Source: Flammeovirgaceae bacterium BBD 1991-12 (lineage in GTDB: Bacteria > Bacteroidota > Bacteroidia > Cytophagales > Cyclobacteriaceae). From it: DNA of 56,373 nt. This document shows positions 18,666 to 44,338 of the stretch, in pieces; the stretch's first letter is position 1; each line of letters begins with the position of its first letter. The stretch covers positions 1-56,373 of the forward strand of contig LYSV01000027.1 in NCBI GenBank assembly GCA_001657315.1, in the 5' to 3' direction. A program made the position numbers and the translations under genes. The notes under the pieces were generated by a model that searched no databases, was not told the origin of the DNA, and saw nothing but the letters and a program-made list of their open reading frames with translations.

Positions 18666-19179
18666 GAAAAAAGTAACTGAAAAAAAATCAAAAACAGTTT
18701 ACATTGCCATTAGAGCCTACCAAAATATTAATTTTAGCTGAAAAGGCAAAGGATAAAATCTTGTATACCAAATAGTTACACCAAGTCCCAAATCCATAAA
18801 GCCCGTCTACCTCATTCCTTCAAATCCATAATAAGGCTGCGTATCACACGCGAAACCTTCTGTAAATTATCATGAATAATGCTAACAAAGGTAAAATTAT
18901 ATTTTTTTCAATCATATTGGAAATCAAAGACTAATGCCGGACAAGTAATATTTTTTTAAAAAAAGAGAGATCAGATAGGAATGAATGGATGATCCACGGT
19001 ATTCTGTCAGTCACAGGAAGGGCAACATCACCACATCCAACACAGGTGAGTTGTCCAAAAAGCATTCAATTGAAGGGAGAAGGGCGGCCTTGCGCCGTGT
19101 GAGGTCGGGAAATTTTTACCATGGATAACACTCCAATGGTTACCGGTTCGCAGAAGAAATAATCTCCTGTGCAGATGGG
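18666..19179. other. Long intergenic region upstream of the type IX unit
   Basis: 514 bp downstream of the cysteine dioxygenase-like gene and upstream of the surface-protein gene. It contains a GTATAC site with adjacent TTACA (18763-18779) and a TACCTTTG element on the minus strand (18886-18893). I see no coding frame in the part from 18960 to 19179. Confidence 0.5.
18886..18893 (-). promoter_or_regulatory. Candidate -7 element (TACCTTTG) for the type IX unit
   Basis: Read on the minus strand, 18893-18886 is TACCTTTG, which fits the Bacteroidota -7 consensus TAnnTTTG. No clear TTTG -33 element lies at the expected distance, so the promoter call is weak. The implied leader is about 210 nt and would include the GTATAC site at 18763-18768. 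Confidence 0.3.
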
Positions 19180-20120: not shown

Positions 20121-20753
20121 TCAGGGTTGTGGAGTAAGTCTGAGATAAGGCTTTACCTCTTCAAAGCCTTTTGGGAATAATTCTGTCGCCTCTTCATTCG
20201 TGACAGAAGGAAGGATCACGCAGTCCTCACCCTGCTTCCAGTTCACCGGAGTGGCCAGCTTCCTGTACGCCGTCAATTGGAGCGAGTCGATCACCCTTAG
20301 AATTTCATTGAAGTTCCGGCCGGTAGAGGCAGGATAGGTGATCATCAGTTTGATCTTTTTATCCGGACCAATGATAAATACAGACCGTACTGTCATTTTA
20401 TCATCCGAATTGGGATGGATCATATCATACAGGCTGGAAACCACCCTGTCTTCATCAGCTACGATCGGAAAATTAACGGTCGTATTCTGGGTCTCGTTGA
20501 TATCCCTGATCCACCCTCTGTGAGACTCCAGGCTATCCACACTCAGCGCCATCACCTTTACATTCCTTTTTTCAAATTCCTCTTTCATACGTGCGGTGGT
20601 ACCCAGCTCTGTGGTACAGACAGGGGTGTAATCCGCCGGGTGTGAAAAAAGTACGCCCCAGCTATCTCCCAGCCATTCGTGAAAATTCAATTCACCTTCA
20701 GTAGTCATCGCGATGAAGTCAGGAGCTTCATCTCCTAATCTTAGTGTTGCCAT
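20121..20753 (-). CDS. 1-Cys peroxiredoxin (Prx6 type), copy 1
   Basis: 210 residues. The peroxidatic cysteine is Cys46 in PADYTPVCTTELG, the Prx6-subfamily form of the motif. The length and C-terminal arm (TPVNWKQGEDCVILPSVTNEEA) also fit Prx6, with a second cysteine near residue 177 that may or may not take part. It reduces H2O2 and organic peroxides in the cytosol. A close paralogue (about 85% identical by my alignment) lies at 32449-33084, same strand. A GTATAC site is located 123 bp upstream of the start, and a strong terminator follows. Confidence 0.95.
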   Translation of the reverse strand: MATLRLGDEAPDFIAMTTEGELNFHEWLGDSWGVLFSHPADYTPVCTTELGTTARMKEEFEKRNVKVMALSVDSLESHRGWIRDINETQNTTVNFPIVADEDRVVSSLYDMIHPNSDDKMTVRSVFIIGPDKKIKLMITYPASTGRNFNEILRVIDSLQLTAYRKLATPVNWKQGEDCVILPSVTNEEATELFPKGFEEVKPYLRLTPQP

Positions 20754-20875
20754 AGGTAATAAAAATTTTAGTTAATTGATAAGGTTTGTTAAATCCGGCT
20801 CCAAGAGTTACCGGTCGTTAGAACAAAATAAACGCAGGTGCGAACAGCGCGATTCAAAAAACAGGTTGACAAAAG

Positions 20876-20881
20876 GTATAC
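20876..20881. promoter_or_regulatory. GTATAC site upstream of peroxiredoxin copy 1
   Basis: A GTATAC hexamer in the 240-bp region between the peroxiredoxin start and the end of a TPR-HTH regulator gene. It is one of ten intergenic GTATAC sites between 18.7 and 30.7 kb. No second half-site at 11 bp is evident here. Confidence 0.3.
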
Positions 20882-20993
20882 ATAGCTTTAAAAGTCCTAA
20901 AAAAGCCCGTTAAAGCCATTTATTGTAAAAAAGTGCCTGATAATCTCGTCAGATTTCCTGAAATGGAATCACAGATTGGCAGGAAAGACTACG

Positions 20994-22796
20994 TTAAACA
21001 CCGGCTACTACCTCGCCAAGACTCTCTTCTTCACGGAGTCCCATTTTCCTTTTCATCCGGTAACGGGCCATTTTTATACTGTTCGGGTCTATACCCAAAA
21101 TCTCGGCAGATTCCTTTATGCTAAGATTCATTTTTAAAAGTGCGCAATGCCGCAGATCACCTGAGCTTAAGGCGGGATAGGTCTCCTTTATCTTGTCAAA
21201 GAATTCCTGATGGACATTGCCAAAATACTTGTTAAAATCGTGCCAGTCCTTTTCAGTGGATCTGTTCACTGTAATCACCCTGAGCAACTTGTTAAACACT
21301 TCTGGCGTCTCTCCATTCAGTTTTTTCCTGCAGCTTTTTATGGTTTCTTCCAACCCTTCAAGGAACTGATTTTTTTGTATCATATTCAGTGTAAAATCCG
21401 CCAACTCCCGTTCTCTGAGCTTGAGTTTATTCTCGACCCCTTTGCGTATAAGTTCGCTGTTTTCAAATGCCAGTTTGTTCCTTTTATTGGCAGCACTGTA
21501 GTATTTCAAACCTATAAATATGATCACAATAGTCAACGCCAGAACCATGACAATAGAAGTGGCCCTTACACGGCTAAGCTTTAATTGCTGATTTAGAGTG
21601 GCTATTTCATTCTCTTTTTCCATGGTCTCCAGTTGCACTCTCAGGTTGGCGTATTTTCGTTCCGTGGTCTCATTGATAAGCGAGTCTGAATATGCTTTCT
21701 GCATTTGGAAATAGTACAAGGCACTGTCATACTGGTGGTTCTCCTCCTTTACTTCTGAAAGCAACAGCCATGCATCTCTCAGCATTTCCATCTCACGGAT
21801 CACCTCTGTAGTACGAATGGTTTGCCACAATGCTGCCTCCGCCAAATGGTAACTCCTTTCTGATCTGTAGATCTTTGCCAGTTCAAAGTTTAAATAGGCC
21901 CCCAGCCTTTTGAAAGCATCTGATACATTCAGATGTTCTTTGGCCTGGTTCAGATGAAACTTGGCTGAATCCGTAAAGCCGGTGCTGTTAAAAATCTCTG
22001 CCAGATTCGCATGCACGTATGTTTTGCCAAGGTCATCGTCTGCATTATCATAATGGTCTAAAGCCTTATAGTAATAGAACATGGCACTGTCGTCCTCCTC
22101 TGTGATGGCGTATATACCGGCCAGTGTATGATAACCGTCACCCATTTTCGCATCATCATTTCGGATCAGCTTATTGTTCAGGTTTTTCCATACAAACGCT
22201 TTGGCCTGCTCATGATCACCCAGTTTGTTGTAGACATTGGCCATATAGCGGTAAATATCAGGCAATTGTTCGAGATCATGCTTCATGGCTATCATGTAGG
22301 CACGCCGGAAATATGAGAGTCCTTCGGCAAAGTGTCCACGCCGGGCAAGCTGCGAGCCCGCATCGGCAAGAGCATCGGTGAGTCCCTCATGATCTTCGGT
22401 CTGTTCAAAATATACAATGGCCTTTTCATAGAAAGTACCGGCCTTATCCTCCAGACCAATGTTATAGTTGGACTTACCGGCGGCCATTAGCAGATAGCCA
22501 TGGATGCTGTTTGGCTTTTCAATTGGATCGTTGATATTGATATCTGCCAGCTTTTTAATGGCAAGGGTGTCCTCATTGAACTTGGCATGCAGAATGACAA
22601 GATTCGCCATAGCGGATCGCAGTCCGTCAGAATAGTCCGTTTCCAGCGAAAGCTTTTCGGCCAGCAGCGCGGTCTCATAGGCAGCGGTAGAACTTGTGTA
22701 CCTGTTGCCAAAGGCATACTGATTCAATGAATCGATCTTTTCCGTACTTTCCAGGGCAGGCTGAAGGTATAGCAGAAAACAGAGGAGGTACTGCAT
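20994..22796 (-). CDS. TPR sensor with transmembrane helix and C-terminal LuxR-like HTH, copy B
   Basis: 600 residues: signal peptide (about 1-16), periplasmic TPR array (about 30-390; units such as AKFHLNQAKEHL and DSALYYFQMQKAY), membrane helix (about 413-435), a cytosolic coiled coil (about 440-490) and a C-terminal helix-turn-helix (about 540-590). The HTH region reads LSSGDLRHCALLKMNLSIKE, SAEILGIDPNSIKMARYRMK. This architecture is a one-component membrane regulator common in Bacteroidota. The gene starts 12 bp after the stop of a homologous gene with the same layout; the two C-termini are almost superimposable while the TPR parts differ more. The HTH may read the GTATAC sites nearby (inference). 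Confidence 0.88.
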   Translation of the reverse strand: MQYLLCFLLYLQPALESTEKIDSLNQYAFGNRYTSSTAAYETALLAEKLSLETDYSDGLRSAMANLVILHAKFNEDTLAIKKLADININDPIEKPNSIHGYLLMAAGKSNYNIGLEDKAGTFYEKAIVYFEQTEDHEGLTDALADAGSQLARRGHFAEGLSYFRRAYMIAMKHDLEQLPDIYRYMANVYNKLGDHEQAKAFVWKNLNNKLIRNDDAKMGDGYHTLAGIYAITEEDDSAMFYYYKALDHYDNADDDLGKTYVHANLAEIFNSTGFTDSAKFHLNQAKEHLNVSDAFKRLGAYLNFELAKIYRSERSYHLAEAALWQTIRTTEVIREMEMLRDAWLLLSEVKEENHQYDSALYYFQMQKAYSDSLINETTERKYANLRVQLETMEKENEIATLNQQLKLSRVRATSIVMVLALTIVIIFIGLKYYSAANKRNKLAFENSELIRKGVENKLKLRERELADFTLNMIQKNQFLEGLEETIKSCRKKLNGETPEVFNKLLRVITVNRSTEKDWHDFNKYFGNVHQEFFDKIKETYPALSSGDLRHCALLKMNLSIKESAEILGIDPNSIKMARYRMKRKMGLREEESLGEVVAGV

Positions 22797-22808: not shown

Positions 22809-24656
22809 TTAAATTGAATGGATGTGTGTTCCCAAGTCAGCGACTTCGTCCAGTCCCATCTTCTTCTTCATTCGGTATCGGGCCATTTTCACGCTGTTGG
22901 GGTCAACTCCAAGTATTTTTGCGGATTCCTTATGGCTCATATTCATCCTTATCAGCGCACAATGGCGCAGATCACCGGCGGACAGAACAGGATAGAGGCT
23001 CTTGAGCTTATCGAAAAACTCATTGTGAACATTCCCAAAATATTTGTTAAAGTCGTCCCATTCCTTTTCATTGGATCTGTTCAGTTCAAGGACCTTTTGT
23101 AACCTGCTCCATGTATGAAAGGCACTGCCATTTTTCTCATTTTTGGCCTTCCTGATGATTGTATCCAGCTCATCAAGGAATTGGTTTTTCTTAACCATTA
23201 CCAATGTGGTATCAGCCAGTTCCTTTTCTTTATGGACCAACTCGTTTTGAATATTTTCTTTCTCCAATTCGCTGTTGTGCAACTGCAGCGTCTTACGATG
23301 ATTTTTGCTCTTCAAAAACAGAATAAGGATCACCGAAGCTATTACGATCAACAAGCTAAAAACAATAGCAGCAATCAGCTTAAGACGATCCAGCTCCGAT
23401 CTTGCCTGAAGATGATCGATGGTCATTTGTTTTTCCAGGGTCTCCAGTTTTACCCTGAACGAGGTCAGGTCCCTTTCTTTCAGCCGCTTGAGTACAGTAT
23501 CTTTTTCTGCCTGATAGACCTCATGGTACCGCAAGGCATTGTCTGCATCATCCTCTTCTTTCGCCATTTGGTATAAAAATTTATAGAGGTCTCTCCTGCT
23601 TCTGTGCGAGTAACTTTCATGTGCATTGTCTCTGAAACTGAATGCATAATAATAGGCGCTGTCCCTTAGATTTTTTGAATGATAGTATTTGGCCAGTTGC
23701 AGATGGAATGAATGTAAATGTGAAGGAAACCGGGACCCCATTAATGTAATGACCTGATCCGTGTACAGCTTGCCCGAATCATACTGCTCAAGTTCATAAT
23801 AGCTTTCGGCGATATTGGAGGTGGTCGCTACGTTTTTGAAAAAGTTATTGCTTCTGTTGTGATACGCCTTTTTATAATAGAAAAGTGCACTATCATAATT
23901 GAACTGATCAAAATGGATATTCCCCAGCACATAGTATGCTGCCATAGTGAGGTCTCTTAACTGCTCGTCATCGCTAATCCGTAATGTGTTAACGGCCAAC
24001 TGTTTCGACTCAGCGAATAATCCATGATCAAAGTACAGATCGGTAAGTGCGAAAAACACCTTTCCAAGCTCATTATGTTGGTTCAATGCCATGGAGCTGC
24101 GGTACGCCTCCTCCAGATAGTCAACGGCCCGGTGATAGTCCTTGTTTTCCATGTACAACTGACCGAGGCCGATCGTTACCGCGAGTCTTAATTTATTATC
24201 TCCCGTTTTGTCAGACCATTGCAATACCTGCTTATAAAATAAGGAGGACATTTCGACGTCTTTTCTTGTTTGATAGAGTTGTGCCAGCCTAAGTCTGGCA
24301 TCGAACAGATTATGACGATCAAGCCAGATACTATCCTGATGAGTTCTGAGTAAAAAATCTATTGCTTCATCTTCGCGTTCCAGTCCGGTCATGATCCGCC
24401 CCAGGTAGTACCGACACAGGGCTGCTTTACTAAGGTCATTATGTGATAGTGCCGAGTTAAGAACTGCCCTTGCATAATGCTCAGCCCTTTCGAAATGGCC
24501 TGAGTCTACAAGTTCCGTGATCATTTCAATTGATCCCCGTGTCTGTGAGTATCCCGCAGTGGCTGCTAACGTTAAGATAGCGCTCAGCAGAACACGGGTA
24601 CAGACCCTGGCGGTATACCCATCCCTGTAAACCTTCAAACTGAAACTATACGACAT
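22809..24656 (-). CDS. TPR sensor with transmembrane helix and C-terminal LuxR-like HTH, copy A
   Basis: 615 residues with the same plan as the next gene: N-terminal signal segment ending near residue 37 (AATAGYSQ), TPR units (about 45-390; for example DSALFYYKKAYHNRSNNF), membrane helix (about 426-449), coiled coil, and C-terminal HTH (LSAGDLRHCALIRMNMSHKE, SAKILGVDPNSVKMARYRMK). It is the first gene of a two-gene operon. The 375-bp region upstream carries four GTATAC sites, two of them exactly 11 bp apart, so autoregulation is plausible. No histidine kinase or receiver domain is present. Confidence 0.88.
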   Translation of the reverse strand: MSYSFSLKVYRDGYTARVCTRVLLSAILTLAATAGYSQTRGSIEMITELVDSGHFERAEHYARAVLNSALSHNDLSKAALCRYYLGRIMTGLEREDEAIDFLLRTHQDSIWLDRHNLFDARLRLAQLYQTRKDVEMSSLFYKQVLQWSDKTGDNKLRLAVTIGLGQLYMENKDYHRAVDYLEEAYRSSMALNQHNELGKVFFALTDLYFDHGLFAESKQLAVNTLRISDDEQLRDLTMAAYYVLGNIHFDQFNYDSALFYYKKAYHNRSNNFFKNVATTSNIAESYYELEQYDSGKLYTDQVITLMGSRFPSHLHSFHLQLAKYYHSKNLRDSAYYYAFSFRDNAHESYSHRSRRDLYKFLYQMAKEEDDADNALRYHEVYQAEKDTVLKRLKERDLTSFRVKLETLEKQMTIDHLQARSELDRLKLIAAIVFSLLIVIASVILILFLKSKNHRKTLQLHNSELEKENIQNELVHKEKELADTTLVMVKKNQFLDELDTIIRKAKNEKNGSAFHTWSRLQKVLELNRSNEKEWDDFNKYFGNVHNEFFDKLKSLYPVLSAGDLRHCALIRMNMSHKESAKILGVDPNSVKMARYRMKKKMGLDEVADLGTHIHSI

Positions 24657-25031
24657 GATTCTGGTTATCCCTTCCGTTATACAAAATACAACTTTCAGGA
24701 AAGCCGGTCAACTTTTACATTCCCGGATTGTCAGCACTTTGTATACCTCAATTTTATACGTTTCATAGACGTTTAGGGACCAAAAAAGAGCTGATGTATA
24801 CCATTTGTATACGAAAAAAAATCCATCGGGCCCAGTTCTTTTCACTTTGTAGCAATTGCTTTGTACATTTCGAATCCATGATCCAGTGATTGTTTAAACA
24901 CCTAATGACCCGAGAAAAGCCAATAACAATCTTCCTGAATGTATACCTAATGTAGGACCGGTTTGCTTGGAGTCTCATGCCATAGCGGCTAACATAGTGT
25001 ATCACTATCAGCCACCGAAACCGACAAGAAC
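24657..25031. other. Divergent intergenic region with clustered GTATAC sites
   Basis: 375 bp between the regulator operon (minus) and a secreted-protein gene (plus). GTATAC occurs at 24741-24746, 24796-24801, 24807-24812 and 24941-24946. I found no convincing gene; an 80-codon minus-strand frame across it lacks coding character. Confidence 0.6.
24793..24812. promoter_or_regulatory. Tandem GTATAC operator-like site, copy 1
   Basis: GATGTATACCATTTGTATAC: two GTATAC hexamers whose starts are exactly 11 bp apart, one helical turn. The first 17 bases recur identically at 26182-26198 upstream of another gene, about 1.4 kb away. A related copy with a degenerate second half (GTATACC...GTAGGAC, again 11 bp) is at 24941-24957. 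Confidence 0.55.
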
Positions 25032-25898
25032 ATGAAAAGTATACTTACTTTTTTTTTCACACTAGCCCTTTCCGTTTGTATGAGCCAGAAAATTGAATAT
25101 CCCTCTTTGGGGGTTTCTTTTTCCGTTCCGATTGAGTTTAATGGTCAGGAGACTCTTTATGGCTATTCCATGTCAGACAATATCAACCACAGGTATATGT
25201 TCATCAGACCGCATGGCGCCAAAAGCATAGACGTTCTTGACCGGCACCTGAACCAAAGCCAGATAAAGATGAACGGCTACACGCTTTATTTTAATCCGTC
25301 AAGAGAACGTATTGATGACCAGGCCTTCGGTAAGACCTTTAGCGCTACGGCAGACCAGGGATACAATTTTAATGGATATGCCATCATTATCATGCGCGAC
25401 AAGGGTCAGGGTATGAGTGTAATATCCGCAACACCTCAGTCCGCTGCAGGAACTTCTCCCAAAGACCTCGCCATGTCACTCTACAACTCTATCTCCTTTT
25501 CCACGCCCGTCCGTGATGAAAAATTGAAGATGTGGTCGGACAATCTGAAAAACAAACACCTGATAAACATATCCAGCCATTATTCCAGTGATGTAGCAAG
25601 TGAATTCAGCACCGGAGGGGATACACAAACCGACATCTGGCTATGCGATAATCATACAGGACATTATAAATTCAAGAGCTCATGGAGCGGTAGTTCTTCC
25701 ACCGGTTTTACCGGGTACAGTACCAGCGCCAACGAAATTCATGGTGAATGGAACATATTTTACAATCTTCAAAGCCAACCCGTGTTACGCATCATGGACA
25801 AAAAGGGCAATGTCATGCAGTTTCTGCTCTACTTTGATGGGCGTAATCTCAGCCTTAACGGATCCAGATTTTCAACAGGTGACTACAACTGTCATTGA
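25032..25898 (+). CDS. Secreted protein of unknown function
   Basis: 288 residues with a signal peptide (MKSILTFFFTLALSVCMSQ). The first ~150 residues resemble no family I can name. The last ~100 residues form a Trp/Gly/Ser-rich beta domain (TQTDIWLCDNHTGHYKF, GEWNIFYNLQSQPVLRIMD, FDGRNLSLNGSRF) suggestive of a lipocalin-like or beta-barrel sheet with two cysteines that could pair. It is divergent from the TPR-HTH regulator operon and shares its GTATAC-rich upstream region, so joint control is likely. A single-gene unit: the next plus-strand gene is 382 bp away. Confidence 0.75.
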   Translation: MKSILTFFFTLALSVCMSQKIEYPSLGVSFSVPIEFNGQETLYGYSMSDNINHRYMFIRPHGAKSIDVLDRHLNQSQIKMNGYTLYFNPSRERIDDQAFGKTFSATADQGYNFNGYAIIIMRDKGQGMSVISATPQSAAGTSPKDLAMSLYNSISFSTPVRDEKLKMWSDNLKNKHLINISSHYSSDVASEFSTGGDTQTDIWLCDNHTGHYKFKSSWSGSSSTGFTGYSTSANEIHGEWNIFYNLQSQPVLRIMDKKGNVMQFLLYFDGRNLSLNGSRFSTGDYNCH

Positions 25899-26093
25899 CC
25901 TGACCCTGACCTGAAATGACTAAAACCACTCATATATTCCTGAGTATAGCTCCCCGTTAAAGATCACTTTAACGTACTGGAGGATTTACCCTGGGGATGG
26001 TATACCCATAGCAATGAATGATATGAACGGGTAACAATTGGTATACCGCCGGAATTTCGACTATCCTGACTCTAATATTTTTCGATAATTTCT

Positions 26094-26168
26094 TTATAGT
26101 TTAAAATTAAACTAAATAATGTTTTTTGATATTTTATATAAATAAAAAAGTTATTTATTAAACTATAA
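26094..26168. repeat. AT-rich inverted repeat with embedded 18-bp palindrome
   Basis: TTATAGTTTAA (26094-26104) and its exact complement TTAAACTATAA (26158-26168) bracket about 53 bp of nearly pure A+T. The left arm also forms its own palindrome, TAGTTTAA-AA-TTAAACTA (26097-26114). It could be a regulator-binding region or a small mobile-element relic. It ends 112 bp before the start codon of the secreted protein. Confidence 0.5.
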
Positions 26169-26181
26169 GACAATATCATAC

Positions 26182-26201
26182 GATGTATACCATTTGTAAA
26201 C
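26182..26201. promoter_or_regulatory. Tandem GTATAC operator-like site, copy 2
   Basis: GATGTATACCATTTGTAAAC: identical to the site at 24793 over 17 bases, with a GTAAAC second half-site starting 11 bp after the first. It lies about 80-100 bp upstream of the start codon of the secreted-protein gene that leads the peroxidase operon. Confidence 0.5.
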
Positions 26202-26280
26202 TACCCTTATCGGGTACACGGTTAAATACCATTCTAATTTAGCGGCTACTGAAAAATTACTGTACATAATCAAAAAAACT

Positions 26281-26997
26281 ATGAAAGCTATGAAAAAGCT
26301 AATGCTGTTATTGGCGCCTGTTACAATCATTATGGGTCTTGGTGCCTTTAAAATCGAAAAAGACAAAACTATTGAGCTGACCTTTGTAGATCATATAAAG
26401 GCAGGTCTGATCGAGCAGGATGTATTTGTAGAGAAAGTACCCGGGTCGGGGAAAGTGTATAGGGTGGTACCTCAGGAACGGGATAAGTACCTGCAGTCTC
26501 CGGTGTTTACTTCGGCAGAACCACATCATCACGATCCATTTAATACCGAAGGCTGCGGCCCTTTTAATAAAGGCAGGACACTCAAAGTTACCCTGGAGGA
26601 GTGGCTGAAGGCTACAGGCACGGCAACGTTCACTTGTGAGGACGGTTGGGGAAAGATCAGGGCCAGCTTTGAAAATCTAATGCCCAACGCTACCTACACC
26701 CTATGGCATTTCTTTATGTCTGCACCTCCTACCGTACCATTTAACGGCACACTGGATGTACCTCTTGGAAACCGGGATGGCAACCAATCGGTCTTCACAA
26801 CGGATTCCAAAGGCAGGGCCAAACTGGACATCACGTTTGAGCATTGCCTGCAATTGAGCAATGTCCAGTTGATGAGTGGTCTGGCGGTAGCCTACCACAG
26901 TGATGGTAAAACCTACGGCGGTTCCCCTGGTCCATTTGGACAGGTGACCCATATTCAACTGTTTGCCATGCTTCCTGAGGCAGATGATCCAAAATAG
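26281..26997 (+). CDS. Secreted protein, paralogue of the lipoprotein at 29824 (partner of a di-heme peroxidase)
   Basis: 238 residues, signal peptide to about residue 22. After an HHH-containing stretch (AEPHHHDPFN) comes a domain of about 150 residues: TLEEWLKATGTATFTCEDGW, FENLMPNATYTLWHFFM, a TDSKGRAKLDITF strand, and the end VAYHSDGKTYGGSPGPFG. The lipoprotein 2.8 kb downstream aligns over the same landmarks (W..L...G..T..C, L.P.T.FW, D.nGkgsiDV, H.D.kTHG...GP). I do not recognise the family. It leads a three-gene unit with a di-heme peroxidase and a DoxX-like protein. Three His and a conserved Cys suggest metal or redox contact, but this is inference. Confidence 0.75.
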   Translation: MKAMKKLMLLLAPVTIIMGLGAFKIEKDKTIELTFVDHIKAGLIEQDVFVEKVPGSGKVYRVVPQERDKYLQSPVFTSAEPHHHDPFNTEGCGPFNKGRTLKVTLEEWLKATGTATFTCEDGWGKIRASFENLMPNATYTLWHFFMSAPPTVPFNGTLDVPLGNRDGNQSVFTTDSKGRAKLDITFEHCLQLSNVQLMSGLAVAYHSDGKTYGGSPGPFGQVTHIQLFAMLPEADDPK

Positions 26998-27006
26998 AAA
27001 AGGTCT

Positions 27007-27040
27007 TTCATTGCAGCTGGCTTAAGCTGGCTGCAATGAA
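27007..27040 (+). promoter_or_regulatory. Intercistronic hairpin before the peroxidase gene
   Basis: TTCATTGCAGC (27007-27017) pairs exactly with GCTGCAATGAA (27030-27040), loop 12 bases. It lies just after the stop of the first gene. An in-frame ATG at 27036 is buried in its right arm. It may stabilise the upstream message or act as an attenuator; there is no following T-run. Confidence 0.5.
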
Positions 27041-27062
27041 TTCCTGCAACCAAAAGTTTCAC

Positions 27063-28418
27063 ATGAAGAAAGTTATGATGGTTTTGGCTACCGTTATGTT
27101 TTTGGTAGCCTCGAATCGCAATGGGCTACATCAGCAACTACAGCGTCTGATCAAAAAGCATGATCTTACAGCCTATGACCCCGGGCCGGTACCTGATCCG
27201 GCTAAGGTTGAACTGGGCCGTATGCTCTTTTTTGACAAGATCCTGAGTGGAAACAAGGATATTTCCTGTGCTACATGCCACCATCCTGGGTTGAAATCCG
27301 GTGATGAACTTACGCTTTCCATCGGTGTTGGAGGGGAAGGTCTTGGCACATCAAGAAGAATGGGAGATGGCAGAGAAAGGATACCGCGCAATTCCCCGGA
27401 GATATTCAACCGAGGAGCCGCAGAATGGCACACTATGTTTTGGGATGGCAGGGTGGCCAGATCCACCTCGAAAGGATTCGATACCCCTGCTGACGAGAAA
27501 CTACCCCAGGGGCTGGAAAATGTACTGGCTGCTCAGGCGATGTTTCCAGTATTATCCCGTGATGAAATGCGCGGGGAGATCGGAGATAAGGACATTCTCG
27601 GTAATGAAAATGAGCTGGCGCTGATCAGTGACGCCGTTCCGCAGTCAGTATGGTATCGGCTGACCCGGCGGCTTTTAGACATACCGGAATACAGAACGAT
27701 GTTTCAGGCAGTCTATCCGGAGATCCAACCTGAAAAGCTGGGGTTTCAACATGCTGCCAACGCCATCGCCGCGTTCGAAGCTGCCGCCTTTACATTTACC
27801 AAAAGTCCGTGGGACCGGTATTTAGCTGGTGATCATCAGGCACTCTCTCCATCCGCTATGCGCGGTGCTGTTCTGTTTTACGAAAAAGCCCGGTGTGTCA
27901 CATGCCATAGTGGCAACCTGCTCACCGACCAGGCTTACCATAACATCGGTATTCCGCAATTCGGACCTGGTAAGGACGATGCAGCGCCGCTGGACGCCGG
28001 ACGCTTTATGGAGTCAGGGCTACAACGGGATCGGTTTGCATTTAGAACACCTCCTCTTAGAAATGTGACTATTACAGGGCCCTGGATGCATAATGGAGCC
28101 TACAACGATTTAAGAGATGTAATTACGCACCATCTCAATGCGGAGACGGCACTGCGCCATTATGATGAACAGCAGTTGCCTGAAGAATTGAGACATACCT
28201 ACAAAGGGGATCAGGATGTCATTGAACGCGTGTTGGATAATCTGGACCCGGTTATTGGCAAATCTCCTAAACTAAGTGAAAATGAGGTCAGCGATATTCT
28301 GGCATTTTTGGAGGCACTGACAGACCCTGACGCTCTGGATCTGACATCTCTTATGCCTGAAGCCGTACCCAGTGGTCTGCCTTTAGAGAATATTTCCAAC
28401 AAAGAAAATACCTATTAG
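27063..28418 (+). CDS. Di-heme cytochrome c peroxidase/MauG family protein
   Basis: 451 residues from ATG 27063. An ATG at 27036 is possible but lies inside a hairpin and would spoil the signal peptide. Export signal 1-17, then two c-type heme motifs: CATCH (69-73, first heme) and CVTCH (277-281, second heme). The C-terminal TPPLRNVTITGPWMHNGAY supplies the usual distal Met/aromatic region. Family members reduce H2O2 with electrons from cytochromes, or, as in MauG and MbnH, oxidise residues of a partner protein; sequence alone does not decide which. Located in the periplasm. The gene for a secreted protein lies directly upstream and a DoxX-like gene directly downstream. Confidence 0.9.
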   Translation: MKKVMMVLATVMFLVASNRNGLHQQLQRLIKKHDLTAYDPGPVPDPAKVELGRMLFFDKILSGNKDISCATCHHPGLKSGDELTLSIGVGGEGLGTSRRMGDGRERIPRNSPEIFNRGAAEWHTMFWDGRVARSTSKGFDTPADEKLPQGLENVLAAQAMFPVLSRDEMRGEIGDKDILGNENELALISDAVPQSVWYRLTRRLLDIPEYRTMFQAVYPEIQPEKLGFQHAANAIAAFEAAAFTFTKSPWDRYLAGDHQALSPSAMRGAVLFYEKARCVTCHSGNLLTDQAYHNIGIPQFGPGKDDAAPLDAGRFMESGLQRDRFAFRTPPLRNVTITGPWMHNGAYNDLRDVITHHLNAETALRHYDEQQLPEELRHTYKGDQDVIERVLDNLDPVIGKSPKLSENEVSDILAFLEALTDPDALDLTSLMPEAVPSGLPLENISNKENTY

Positions 28419-28451
28419 GTGTGGTGAAATAACGTGGTAAACGACTTCAAA

Positions 28452-28901
28452 ATGTCCAGCTTCATTCATCCTGACAGGAAAACGGATCTGTTACGTGTCA
28501 GCATAGGGGTAGTTTATCTATGGTTTGGAGGACTTAAATTTTTTGCTGGTCTCAGCCCTGCAGAATCACTGGCCACTGAAACACTGGCCCGGCTGAGCTT
28601 TGGGCTTATTCCAGGTCATATCTGCTACCTGTCGCTGGCTTTTGGAGAAACATTTATCGGCGTGTTACTTGTGGTAAACCGAATGGTCAGGGTGGCCGTA
28701 ATGGCCGCAATCGTGCATATGCTTGGCACCTTCACGCCCATATTGCTGCTCCCTCAGGTCTGTTTTAATGAACCACCCTTTGCCATTACGCTGGTGGGCC
28801 AATACATTGTTAAGAATATCGTTATCGTCAGTGCCCTGCTGGTCATCTATCCGTTTGAGCCCCCTCACCCGGGGAAAAAGACGAACATCAAAAAGCCGTG
28901 A
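28452..28901 (+). CDS. DoxX-like membrane protein
   Basis: 149 residues from ATG 28452 (GTG 28434 is the alternative). Four membrane helices (about 14-34, 50-72, 78-98 and 112-133), with the DoxX-type start RVSIGVVYLWFGGLKF and a conserved-looking GETFIGVLL in the second half. DoxX-family proteins are often found with redox enzymes and may move electrons or quinols, but the activity of most is unproven. It starts 33 bp after the peroxidase stop; the gene ends inside the terminator stem at 28893-28925. Confidence 0.7.
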   Translation: MSSFIHPDRKTDLLRVSIGVVYLWFGGLKFFAGLSPAESLATETLARLSFGLIPGHICYLSLAFGETFIGVLLVVNRMVRVAVMAAIVHMLGTFTPILLLPQVCFNEPPFAITLVGQYIVKNIVIVSALLVIYPFEPPHPGKKTNIKKP

Positions 28902-29468: not shown

Positions 29469-29823
29469 GATGATCAAAATTACTTAAATCGGTAATAGAA
29501 AAGTGACGCGCTTCCCTGTTCTACAAACCTGTAGACCTTTTGTAATGATGAAAATATAATTATTCTCAATTCAAATAAAGTAATTCAAAGTTTCAGGATT
29601 TAATGATCAAATCGCCCATGATGTGTTGTAAGGTAACGTTTTCCAGCAAAGATTGACCCGTCAGATCTTAATATGATCCCCAGGAACGGGATCGAAAAGG
29701 TTACATAAGGTCTACAAGGTCCAAAAGGTCTTTTTTGAAGTGTCCGGGCGGCATAATATTGCACACCAATCTGGGCCAGATGGTAATAGTATAAAATTTT
29801 CACTAAAAAACCATAATAAAAAT
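29469..29823. other. Divergent intergenic region
   Basis: 355 bp between the acetyltransferase (minus) and the lipoprotein (plus). It holds the palindrome TCTACA-AACC-TGTAGA at 29520-29535 and several AGGTC/GGTCTAC-like repeats around 29699-29731. No gene is apparent. The plus-strand reading frame extends upstream of the lipoprotein ATG but has no credible start. Confidence 0.5.
29520..29535. promoter_or_regulatory. Short palindrome, candidate operator
   Basis: TCTACA (29520-29525), four bases, TGTAGA (29530-29535), upstream of the acetyltransferase start. A GGTCTAC-containing repeat occurs again near 29707. Such short palindromes arise by chance fairly often. Confidence 0.25.
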
Positions 29824-30516
29824 ATGTTGAACATCAAATTAATTTCAAGCCATTTTTTGTGCTCCTTATTATTATGCACCCTTGTGGCTTTGTCCGGCTG
29901 TGGTGACGATGACGAAAAGGACCTGCCCTCCACGGTACTGGGCCAGGTAGTGCCTGTAAATCTGTTTGCTGTAAATGAAGCCGGTGAAATGCCGGACAAG
30001 GATGATGACCTTGTGTTCGAATTCAGGAATAATAACCCTGTTATGCTACCTGATGATAGCAGGCAATTGACCTGGGGAGAACTGACCAATGACCTTAAGG
30101 GAGAGGTTACCATAGAATGCGCAGAAGGTGGCGCCAACATTAAGGTCGATGTTGAGGGTCTTATTCCAGGAACGGTGATCACCTTTTGGGCTGTTTTTCT
30201 TGATGATCCCGGGTTCCAGCCTGATAACCCTGCCGAACTGTTTGGGATCCGAGCCATTGGTGCCTGCGGAGCACGGGATGGAAGCGATAACTACATCATT
30301 GCCGATGCCAACGGCAAGGGTTCCATTGATGTATTCCTTCAAACACCGGACGTCTTTGACATGCTGGACAAAACTGAAGCCGGTTGTATCCTGACGGACG
30401 AGTTTGAGTTCCATGTAGTGGGTGCCATACATCTGGACAAAAAGACGCATGGGTCCCTGCTTGGGCCTGATGGTACAGCACTGGAATACTTTGCGTGGAT
30501 TCACAAACGTGGATAG
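29824..30516 (+). CDS. Lipoprotein paralogous to the secreted protein at 26281
   Basis: 230 residues from ATG 29824, which places a lipobox at the right distance (TLVALSGC, lipidated Cys near 29), followed by DDDEKD. The body aligns with the secreted protein at 26281-26997: LTWGELTNDLKGEVTIEC, VEGLIPGTVITFWAVF, IADANGKGSIDVF and VVGAIHLDKKTHG...GPDG. Several acidic residues follow the lipobox, a frequent feature of surface-exposed Bacteroidota lipoproteins. Function unknown. A monocistronic unit with its own terminator at 30534-30572, though it may act with the peroxidase cluster 1 kb upstream. Confidence 0.75.
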   Translation: MLNIKLISSHFLCSLLLCTLVALSGCGDDDEKDLPSTVLGQVVPVNLFAVNEAGEMPDKDDDLVFEFRNNNPVMLPDDSRQLTWGELTNDLKGEVTIECAEGGANIKVDVEGLIPGTVITFWAVFLDDPGFQPDNPAELFGIRAIGACGARDGSDNYIIADANGKGSIDVFLQTPDVFDMLDKTEAGCILTDEFEFHVVGAIHLDKKTHGSLLGPDGTALEYFAWIHKRG

Positions 30517-30572: not shown

Positions 30573-30605
30573 AGCCACGTCTCAGGCCCGAGAGGGCTCA
30601 AAACG

Positions 30606-30611
30606 TATACA
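30606..30611. promoter_or_regulatory. GTATAC site upstream of the decarboxylase gene
   Basis: A GTATAC hexamer 37 bp upstream of the decarboxylase start, without a clear second half-site. It is the rightmost of the ten intergenic GTATAC sites found between 18.7 and 30.7 kb. Confidence 0.3.
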
Positions 30612-41881: not shown

Positions 41882-44338
41882 TCAAAACTCCATCTCAAAA
41901 TCATCACCATTCCCCCGGTCTCTCTGGTTCCGTTCGCGCCGGCTGGCCTTTTGATTTACGCGATAGGTGAAACTTAGTGTAAAGGACCGTGGCCTCCGTC
42001 GGTAAGTGGATTCAAATTCAAAATCTTCGTCGACCGTATTGTAACGGTATAATCCTGAATTAAATATATCCCTGATATTGAATACAAAGGTGCCTTTCTT
42101 TTTAAGTACATTCATGCTCCACCCAAGGTCCAGCGTATAAAATGACCTTCGGTCTCCCTGAGGGCGTATCTCAGGAGCCCGGTACCTAAAGTTCATCTGG
42201 TATTCCAGTTTCTTCCACAAAGTCATCCTGGAATTCAGCCGGGTGTTCATGGTATAGGTGTCACTGTCAAAATCCTGATCAGAAAAACCTCCGTCTATGA
42301 TGGAACGGTACAGGTTGGCGTTACCATTCACCCTCCACCAGTCGGTCAGCTCATGGGAATAATTGAACTCAAACCCATAGGCATTCTCGATGGAAAGGTT
42401 GACGGGCATCGAAATGTTGACTGTATCCACCCTTGTGGTGATGCGTTGTACCACCCCTTCCGTTCTCCGGTAGTAAATACTGGAAAAGAGTGTGGCTTTC
42501 TTCCAGGTTTTTAAATATCCCATTTCATAGGAATCGGTGAAGGTAGGGTCAAGGTCCGGGTTGCCGGTTCTCAGATTCCGGTTATCACCTATGGTGAACG
42601 GAAAGGGATTGAGGCTTCTGGAGCGCGGCCTTCTTATTCTACGGCTGTAACTTGTCTGCACGGAAGAACCTTCGCGGATCGTGTAGGTAAAAAAAGCGCT
42701 CGGAAAAAGGTTGGTATAGTTCTTTGGAAAGCTCTTATCGGTTTGCAACAACTCTACATTGATATCTGTTGCCTCCACCCGCAAGCCGAGCTGATAGGAT
42801 ATCTTTTCCATTTTGTGACCATAGATGGCATAGGCAGCATGAACATCCTCGTCGTATCGGAAGTTATTGCTCAGTCCGGTTTCATTTACCCATACCCCCT
42901 CAGTCAGTGTCTCCACCAGATAGTCATTCTGCAGGTCACGGAGGTTGGCCCGGTAGCCCATCTCAAAAGTGGTGGATTCGCTAAGGGGATGAACATAATC
43001 AGCCTGAACAAGCCAGCTTTTTTCCCCTTCCCGATTATCAGATCGCTGGTCAGGCGGTAAAGCCGCATCATTATCCAGGGTAAAAAGCAGTGTTTCCACA
43101 ATACCGGCCTTTTCTATTTCGGTATTATCGCGGTACTGAATATCGGCTGTTAGCTTCTGGCCTTTCTTTTTGAAAGTTTTGCTGTACCCCAGGGCATACT
43201 CCCGGTTGATGTCCTCCTCATCTTCTCCTTCTACACGCAGGGTTTCTTCCGTCAGGCTATTGGAAATGTCAAAATCACGGTAGTACGTATCCCTGTCATT
43301 GTTACCATCGGATATTCTGTAAAGAAAAGAACCAGTCAGGCTGCTGTTCTTGTCGATCAACCATTCCGTACCGAGCCTGACATTGTTGGATAACCCGCTT
43401 CGCTCAAAGTCAAATTCCTGATCTGTGATAGTGGTTCCTTCATTGGAAAAATAACGCTGAAAGCTGGAGCCTTCCCCCGGGGTATCACGATAGCGGAAGC
43501 CATAATTGCCAAAAAAATTGATCTTTTTCAGCCGGTAATTGAAGTTCAGGGAAGCACCATGATTATCAGGATAACCAGTGTCAAGTGTAAACGAACCGTT
43601 CAGCCCATTGTCACGGTTCTTTTTTAAAATGATATTTATGATGCCGGCATTACCTTCTGCATCATACCGGGCTGACGGATTCGTCACTACTTCAATACTC
43701 TCAATAATATCTCCCTGAAGCTGCCGCAGACCACCACTGCTGCTGATACCTATCAGTCCTGACGGTTTACCATCCACCAGTATCCTCACATTCTCACTGC
43801 CTCTCAGGCTAACATTTCCATCCTGATCAACGGATACCGAAGGTACATTGTCCAGAATATCCACAGCCGTCCGGCCTGCATTACTCAGGTCTTTACCTAC
43901 ATTGAATACCCGTTTGTCAAGTGTCATCTCCATCTGCCCCTTTTCACCGGTTACAACTACCTCATTCAGTGTTGCTACATCCGGTTTAAGGCCAATCTCT
44001 CCAAGATTAACTTCATCAGCATCACGTCGTATGGCTATCCCCTGAATTATTCTTTTCTCATAGGATATAAACTGAACCATGGCATAAAACCTGCCAGGAC
44101 GAATGTCTATGGAAAACATACCTCCTGCATCAGTAATCCCACCAGTCACCAACGAAGAATCCCTCATGGCAAACACACTGACATTGGCGTATTCCAGTGG
44201 CTGCCCTGTATCCTCATCCAGCACCTGTCCTGTAAGCTTTTTTGGTGTAAAGCTACGCTGCCCGCTTCGTGTCCCCCGCTGCTGAGCCTCAGCCGAGTAC
44301 AAGGATAAAATAAAACAAACTGTTAAAAATCTCTTCAT
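41882..44338 (-). CDS. Outer-membrane receptor with CarboxypepD_reg plug region (OMP_b-brl_3 type)
   Basis: 818 residues from the ATG at 44338; a TTG two codons upstream is less likely. Signal peptide (1-18), a CarboxypepD_reg-like sandwich (about 30-115: LTGQVLDEDTGQPLEYANVS, TDAGGMFSIDIRPG), a TonB-plug-like domain (about 120-215: LNEVVVTGEKGQMEM, DNVPSVSVDQDGNVSLRGSE, NVRILVDGKPSGLIG), then a large beta barrel ending in FTLSFTYRVNQKASRRERNQ. This class moves or senses compounds at the outer membrane. It is the last gene of the ECF-sigma operon and a likely target of that sigma factor. No SusD-like gene accompanies it. Confidence 0.9.
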   Translation of the reverse strand: MKRFLTVCFILSLYSAEAQQRGTRSGQRSFTPKKLTGQVLDEDTGQPLEYANVSVFAMRDSSLVTGGITDAGGMFSIDIRPGRFYAMVQFISYEKRIIQGIAIRRDADEVNLGEIGLKPDVATLNEVVVTGEKGQMEMTLDKRVFNVGKDLSNAGRTAVDILDNVPSVSVDQDGNVSLRGSENVRILVDGKPSGLIGISSSGGLRQLQGDIIESIEVVTNPSARYDAEGNAGIINIILKKNRDNGLNGSFTLDTGYPDNHGASLNFNYRLKKINFFGNYGFRYRDTPGEGSSFQRYFSNEGTTITDQEFDFERSGLSNNVRLGTEWLIDKNSSLTGSFLYRISDGNNDRDTYYRDFDISNSLTEETLRVEGEDEEDINREYALGYSKTFKKKGQKLTADIQYRDNTEIEKAGIVETLLFTLDNDAALPPDQRSDNREGEKSWLVQADYVHPLSESTTFEMGYRANLRDLQNDYLVETLTEGVWVNETGLSNNFRYDEDVHAAYAIYGHKMEKISYQLGLRVEATDINVELLQTDKSFPKNYTNLFPSAFFTYTIREGSSVQTSYSRRIRRPRSRSLNPFPFTIGDNRNLRTGNPDLDPTFTDSYEMGYLKTWKKATLFSSIYYRRTEGVVQRITTRVDTVNISMPVNLSIENAYGFEFNYSHELTDWWRVNGNANLYRSIIDGGFSDQDFDSDTYTMNTRLNSRMTLWKKLEYQMNFRYRAPEIRPQGDRRSFYTLDLGWSMNVLKKKGTFVFNIRDIFNSGLYRYNTVDEDFEFESTYRRRPRSFTLSFTYRVNQKASRRERNQRDRGNGDDFEMEF

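Follow-up and report, generated by a model that had tools for sequence, protein, structure and literature searches.

The pairing of a membrane one-component regulator with an operator built of direct repeats is of a known kind. In the accessible text of PMC3878776, the HTCS regulators of Bacteroides are membrane-anchored proteins whose predicted operators consist of direct repeats facing one side of the DNA helix, and they carry a histidine kinase, a receiver and an AraC-type helix-turn-helix (HTH) domain, with a mean of 21 bp between the repeats. The same sections describe the SusR-like regulators of Bacteroides as single membrane proteins with a periplasmic sensor, a C-terminal HTH and direct-repeat motifs whose repeat centres lie 67 or 77 bp apart, similar regulators having similar motifs (PMC3878776). 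In another phylum, DadR, HcdR and CadR of Eggerthella lenta are membrane-anchored activators of metabolic genes with a LuxR-type HTH and 10-12 transmembrane (TM) helices, and no 11-bp code appears in the accessible sections of the report on them (PMC9734109).

The window analysed here, an entire contig (C6) of 56,373 bases from an 8.59-Mb genome in 282 contigs, encodes two regulators that share traits with each of these systems. Regulator 1 (P0001, 615 aa, 22809-24656, minus strand) has a TPR solenoid, a TM helix near residues 430-450, a cytosolic coiled coil and a GerE-like HTH; regulator 2 (P0002, 600 aa, 20994-22796, minus strand) has the same architecture and lies in tandem with it, as it does in a sister species (G088). 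Hydropathy gives an N-terminal hydrophobic stretch in P0001 and TM peaks at 430 in P0001 and 412 in P0002, so that one TM helix stands between sensor and HTH, while Pfam detects only TPR-like and HTH-like families and finds no kinase or receiver domain in either protein. By their single TM helix and domain content, both are predicted membrane-anchored one-component regulators. They thus differ from HTCS in having a GerE-like HTH, no detected kinase or receiver and a repeat spacing of 11 (in some relatives 12) bp, from the SusR-like proteins in that 11-bp spacing, obtained from a scan of 9-25 bp, and from the Eggerthella activators in having one TM helix.

The HTH assignment draws on several comparisons. 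For P0001, the PF00196 (GerE) score of 13.1 bits lies below its cut-off of 23.5, and that of Sigma70_r4_2 is the higher of the two at 19.5 (cut-off 25.7). GerE is matched at E <= 0.1 by each of the 14 A5 HTH-domain sequences, the best at 9.4e-8. Searched against solved structures, the HTH profile returns GerE domains of the NarL/FixJ type (EsrB, NarL, DosR, FixJ) among its best matches, with EsrB, NarL and DosR chains at E 2e-4 to 0.06; these proteins are, however, response regulators, and NarL binds inverted 7-2-7 sites rather than direct repeats. An AlphaFold model of P0001, built on an alignment of 4 sequences, places the TPR solenoid at about 45-390 (pLDDT mostly 80-93, lower at 270-350), followed by an uncertain coiled coil and by HTH helices at 545-554, 560-570, 575-582 and 586-599 (pLDDT about 64-88, mean 69, from the same alignment of 4). 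The topology would put the TPR part in the periplasm. The best NCBIfam match of P0001 is the BT3442 family (NF053779), with scores of 41.9 and 33.8 bits (P0001 41.9) that lie far below the cut-off of 940. BT3442 itself is described in the accessible text of PMC2954219 as a multi-domain protein with TPR motifs. The genome holds 14 matches to P0001.

The two intergenic regions beside these genes (375 and 382 bp) are rich in the word GTATAC, which stands at all seven positions originally predicted (24741, 24796, 24807, 24941, 26000, 26041 and 26185). Some 0.2 words had been expected by chance, and a first-order model built on the regions' own composition agrees, giving 0.25, with a maximum of 4 in 5000 runs; GTATAC is here the joint top 6-mer with AAAAAA (7 each). 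Two further copies, at 24613 and 25039, fall within the coding starts of the flanking genes. The whole window contains 21 copies against a shuffle mean of 7.4, a count reached by 0 of 100 shuffles. Of all 6-base palindromes in the window, TGATCA leads by a wide margin, with 71 copies against 40 for AAATTT in second place. Elsewhere in the genome, three GTATAC lie within 34 bases at G000:C89:10402-10435, about 10 kb from a family regulator match at C89:20995.

The three partners claimed at 11 bp are indeed present (GTATAC at 24807, GTAGGA at 24952 and GTAAAC at 26196), as is the identical 17-base block at 24793 and 26182. When both strands are read, the recurring and conserved unit is nevertheless best described, on sequence grounds, not as a GTATAC palindrome but as a direct repeat, TGTnnACC-N3-TGTnnACC, in which TGTATACC or TGTAGACC is followed after 3 bases by TGTATAC, TGTAAAC, TGTCAACC, TGTAACC or TGTAG. 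Read as a palindrome, close GTATAC pairs exceed a CATATG control (24 vs 10, forward strand) but have no preferred spacing by eye.

Between the regulators and the divergent gene at 25032 lie a single half-site, TGTATACC (24740..24747, plus strand), with its hexamer kept in the sister and TTATAC 13 rather than 11 bp on; a candidate operator pair, TGTATACCATTTGTATACG (24795..24813, plus strand), at 11 bp and with both hexamers kept in the sister; and a second candidate pair, TGTATACCTAATGTAGGAC (24940..24958, plus strand), where the sister retains the first half-site together with TGTAG from the second. The other intergenic region holds a candidate pair, TGTATACCATTTGTAAACT (26184..26202, plus strand), 78 bp ahead of the gene at 26281, a weaker candidate, GGTATACCAATTGTTACCC (26029..26047, minus strand), and a GTATAC at 26000..26005 with no 11-bp partner on either strand. 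The three further single sites of the original prediction fared unequally: the word is present at 18763, the one put at 30606, ahead of the decarboxylase gene, lies at 30605, and the one at 20876 turns out to be part of a full minus-strand candidate pair, TGTATACCTTTTGTCAACC (20864..20882), 111 bp ahead of a peroxiredoxin gene, identical to the sister in 19 of 19 bases and with its 17-mer recurring on contigs C11 and C237 of the same genome. At 18763 and 30605 an 11-bp partner is absent, so both lose support as regulon sites, and GTATAC is absent ahead of the orthologous type IX unit in the sister, the counterpart of 18763. Two pairs with GTAGACC half-sites come in addition to the sites first listed, a variant candidate operator, TGTAGACCTTATGTAACCT (29698..29716, minus strand), and a possible variant, TGTAGACCTTTTGTAATGA (29530..29548, plus strand).

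A scoring matrix was trained on eight sites, none of them from the window and one of them the sister ortholog of the peroxiredoxin site. Its top scores in the window fall at 20864 minus (29.8), 24795 plus (23.7), 26184 plus (23.0) and 29698 minus (17.3), the largest of 20 shuffled maxima being 16.6. Lower down come 26029 minus (14.2), an unrelated match at 42740 (14.1), 24940 plus (14.1) and 29530 plus (13.7); since matches within coding sequence follow directly, from 13.6, the sites at 26029, 24940 and 29530 are at noise level by score. The distance to the first possible start is 73-221 bp for six window sites, one of which, 29530, would be at 275 bp if translation begins at the ATG at 29824, and 1024 bp for the candidate pair at 26029.

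Conservation could be followed in close relatives. A scan with short regulator 1 peptides, which reaches close relatives only, returned one, a Fulvivirga MAG, at 67% identity. Within the genus (15 genomes), G088 alone encodes a close ortholog of each regulator; there too the two genes are in tandem, and the locus also keeps the divergent neighbour (the 25032 ortholog) and the peroxiredoxin downstream. In the intergenic region of G088 the four GTATAC sites, the 11-bp pair among them, follow one another as in the window. Their hexamers are identical in 24 of 24 bases, compared with 237 of 411 aligned window bases overall, a result equalled by 2 of 373 circular shifts. Upstream of the peroxiredoxin, the whole pair forms a run of 19 consecutive identical bases amid 143 of 271 identical between window and sister. 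Further blocks kept in the sister at 24838-24905 (ACAAAGTGAAAA, AAATGTACAAAG and TTAGGTGTTT) do not fit the half-site. This footprinting uses one sister genome because P0001 has no match at E <= 1e-60 in any of 77 other family genomes drawn, a sample that did not include G088, and the protein encoded at 26281 (P0004) has none at E <= 1e-8 in the 14 other genus genomes; of 91 genomes searched, a close regulator 1 ortholog occurs in the genome studied (G000) and G088 only.

The exact 17-base pattern is correspondingly rare. Over 390 family genomes it occurs 5 times in G000, once in G088 and once each in two others, with 7 matches for the reversed control, so that 386 of the 390 have no copy; the pattern was written from G000 sites, and its count of 5 there is thus no test, which the other genomes provide. 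With at most one mismatch, G000 has 9 sites vs 3 for the control, G088 4 vs 0, and the 13 other genus genomes together 10 vs 10; with at most two, G000 has 27 vs 18. Among the G000 copies examined for the genome-wide promoter enrichment that the original prediction had asked about, the best are mostly intergenic, but weaker ones occur near control level, and some sites, at 73950 of C11 and 7697 of C86, fall within genes. As the weaker sites are near control, no large regulon is claimed.

The direct-repeat architecture extends to other members of the regulator family. A sequence-only model run over the genus gave ten matches in one genome (G079). Two of these flank a single TPR-HTH gene and a third lies some 1.7 kb away from a second such gene; the half-site is TGTAGACC instead of TGTATACC. 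These letters suggested that each regulator might have its own letters within one frame, and loci were then taken by regulator or HTH homology, not by motif: 160 loci, of which 60 were from the genus, 60 from outside it and 40 held out, with 66, 65 and 41 regulators. Repeats anchored on TGT and agreeing in four or more of the five bases that follow were counted in noncoding DNA within 400 bp of the regulator gene. At 11 bp there were 10, 14 and 9 in the three sets (33 in total) and at 12 bp 5, 0 and 4 (9 in total), whereas the remaining spacings between 9 and 25 bp gave 0-4 apiece, with a mean of 0.8 for one spacing in one set. Comparable lengths of distant noncoding DNA from these loci yielded 1, 2 and 4 repeats at 11 bp, some of which resemble the near sites and may be real. 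When the proteins are pooled at 40% identity into 103 groups, an 11-bp repeat is present in 23 of them, a 12-bp repeat in 9 and a repeat at any other given spacing in 0-5; for 133 of 179 regulators there is no TGT repeat within 400 bp. In the held-out set, for which the 11-bp prediction had been fixed beforehand, 11 bp led with 9 and 12 bp came next with 4; without seven of its 40 loci (L324-L330), which were unfetched matches from genomes already drawn on, the figures are 8 and 4.

Direct repeats of 8 bases were also counted without any motif. The second set has 41 at 11 bp vs a mean of 7.7 and a maximum of 14, and the third has 27 vs a mean of 6.4 and a maximum of 23, at 22 bp. Upstream of the long regulators of the first set there are 19 at 11 bp vs a mean of 3.9 and a maximum of 12, a peak not seen downstream of them; for the TPR class of that set, 11 bp yields 15 upstream and 15 downstream and is rivalled by 12 bp (16 upstream) and 14 bp (18 downstream). 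One array, at L131 (G079:C39, 3070-3110), comprises four half-sites with an 11-bp period (TGTAGACC, TGTAAAGC, TGTAAACC and TGTAAATC), hinting at more than a dimer.

The sites at 11 or 12 bp also have a common orientation. Reading away from the regulator gene, that is, downstream on its own strand or upstream on the opposite strand, are 36 of 42 (p = 3e-6), and three of the six exceptions belong to a single array. For 30 of 33 chosen sites (26 from family loci and 7 from the window) a gene start lies ahead within the locus, at a median of 123 bp, and SusC-like proteins are found by eye among the genes ahead of long regulators. At four loci (L189, L190, L191 and L193, in G080, G090, G083 and G036), ORFs of 657-658 aa join a carbohydrate-kinase-like N-terminal part to the family HTH (by eye, in L190), and direct repeats of TGACGT with an 11-bp period precede the ORF starts by 30-41 bp. 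Fusion of such a regulator to a kinase would be out of the ordinary.

The letters of the half-sites vary with the recognition helix. The HTH domains of 179 regulators were aligned, and the two residues after the Val in SVxx..RYR were named X1 and X2; the helix reads DPNSVKMARYR in P0001 and DPNSIKMARYR in P0002. Helix similarity and half-site similarity correlate (Mantel r 0.43 and 0.41, with 0 of 10000 permutations each; 4 of 10000 for the held-out set alone and 2 of 10000 for strictly new genomes). The 46 regulators with a site form 36 groups. Of the 12 groups that have Lys at X1, 11 have CC at half-site positions 7-8, the one exception being the sister ortholog of P0001, and CC is found in 0 of 24 groups without this Lys; excluding loci fetched by motif, the counts are 10 of 10 vs 0 of 24. 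The helix rules as first fixed (ACC; TGTCC) scored 0 of 1 each on the held-out loci, where 7 regulators were usable, the helix pattern having dropped 5 of 12. The X1 rule as given is a post hoc revision, with 7 of 8 vs 0 of 17 in discovery, 4 of 4 vs 0 of 7 held out and 3 of 3 vs 0 of 7 in strictly new genomes. Lys at X2 goes with TGTCC in 6 of 6 vs 0 of 19 in discovery and 1 of 3 vs 0 of 8 held out, counts in which two L154 regulators with one common site were both entered. Repeats at 12 bp with an otherwise equal grammar occur at L154, L157, L160, L163, L314 and L322, and the regulators at 5 of these 6 loci have Lys at X2. The covariation of helix and letters, as read from aligned proteins and DNA, is strong, and the exact rule is provisional. 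P0001 and P0002 each carry Lys-Met at these two positions, and Lys at X1 occurs in 0 of 9 other members examined in the same genome, on account of which the TGTnnACC sites are assigned to the two window regulators.

With these data the GTATAC words are very probably half-sites of predicted operators for the two adjacent regulators, and the proposed binding of the sites by P0001 and P0002 is well supported by sequence comparison, but other explanations have to be weighed. It is unlikely that another DNA-binding protein, such as an OmpR/PhoB-type response regulator or a peroxide regulator, occupies the sites and that the TPR regulators are simply among its targets. PhoB and OmpR boxes are typically 11-bp direct repeats, which the architecture found here would fit, some copies lie on unlinked contigs away from P0001 and P0002, and peroxide-related targets would suit a redox regulator. 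Against such a protein speak the same architecture, in other letters, beside further members of the HTH family, with letters that follow the recognition helix, and exact copies that, beyond chance-level singles, are limited to G000 and G088, the two of 91 genomes searched with a close regulator 1 ortholog.

This limitation to two genomes is likewise not what a general promoter element would produce, and it is highly improbable that the words are core promoter elements rather than operators. The -7 box of Bacteroidota sigma factors is TAnnTTTG, and TTTG does follow the first half-site in several copies; in the TACCATTTG copies, however, TA and TTTG are 3 and not 2 bases apart, the words occur in both orientations, and 6 of 7 window pairs lie 73-275 bp ahead of start codons. 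The identical 17-mers at unlinked loci might be taken for what is left of a small repetitive or mobile element, or the words for an effect of composition, an origin that we regard as barely credible given that the flanks of the copies are unalignable past about 17-20 bases (by eye), that the composition model yields 0.25 words and that the copies are conserved against a diverged background. Operators for the two membrane-anchored regulators remain the preferred reading. The original picture of a local regulon of both regulators, with half-sites one helical turn apart, thereby gains from the sister conservation, the 386 of 390 genomes without a copy and the family architecture, while its membership changes: 29698 (and weakly 29530) and unlinked sites on other contigs join it, and 18763 and 30605 recede.

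The predicted targets adjoin these operators. Divergent from the regulators is a gene for a 288-aa protein of no known family with a signal-like start (25032..25898, plus strand), a neighbour kept in the sister. The pair at 26184 precedes P0004, a 238-aa protein of no known family (26281..26997, plus strand) with no match at E <= 1e-8 in 14 other genus genomes, and possibly co-transcribed with it are a di-haem cytochrome c peroxidase (CCP_MauG; 27036..28418, plus strand) and a DoxX-type membrane protein (28434..28901, plus strand). The peroxiredoxin (AhpC-TSA with 1-cysPrx_C; 20121..20753, minus strand) is a predicted target, and a 230-aa lipoprotein-like protein (29824..30516, plus strand) a possible one. 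The proteins of 26281-26997 and 29824-30516 are 26% identical over 138 positions, have signal- or lipoprotein-like starts and both lie behind predicted operators. Strong unlinked copies are found on four other contigs: on C3 near a UPF0014 permease, on C11 near an outer-membrane barrel, on C237 near a small protein whose start is signal-like and on C21 near what is, by eye, a receiver-like protein; the E. coli iron exporter FetB is a member of UPF0014. The targets suggest a redox theme, and a redox-stress signal is a guess from these genes.

From the sites, conservation, 11-bp architecture, orientation and helix-letter covariation observed in the window and family data, a mechanism may be proposed. 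Each operator would be a head-to-tail TGTnnACC-N3-TGTnnACC pair, whose 11-bp period would set two HTH domains next to each other on the same side of the helix, as in a dimer. Beyond the cytoplasmic membrane, the probably periplasmic TPR solenoid would detect or bind a partner and relay this through the TM helix and coiled coil to the HTH, thereby controlling the regulators' own divergent promoter region, the genes at 26281-28901, the promoter region at 29478-29823 and the peroxiredoxin. Since 6 of 7 window pairs lie 73-275 bp ahead of a start codon, the regulators are probably activators.

Beyond this locus, a Bacteroidota-wide operator code, in which membrane-anchored GerE-like HTH domains read TGT half-sites at 11 (some 12) bp with letters set by the helix, appears reasonably likely on the family comparison. 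It would hold for any sensor type (TPR, long sensors beside SusC-like genes and others), with sites that adjoin the regulator gene and point at the neighbouring target gene, and in it X1 would set half-site positions 7-8 (Lys with CC) and X2 would influence positions 4-5. Its support comes mainly from the organism's own family and class, and two site loci (L233 and L248) are from other classes. Such regulators are frequent in some of the Bacteroidota: among the genomes drawn, a strong HTH match is present in 23 of 31 from the family, 31 of 109 from the class and 12 of 46 from the phylum (under thresholds that differ). No published operator for them was found in the literature searched. That search, by title or abstract and with subscription journals mostly outside its coverage, found no equivalent operator, and within its scope the 11-bp code, like its link to the recognition helix, appears to be new. 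If the code is true, the operators and targets of many unstudied regulators would be predictable from protein sequence. Such an operator grammar would provide predicted targets and testable sites for orphan membrane regulators, several of which lie by eye beside SusC-like genes, and would reveal the way in which an HTH tethered to the membrane recognises sites in tandem.
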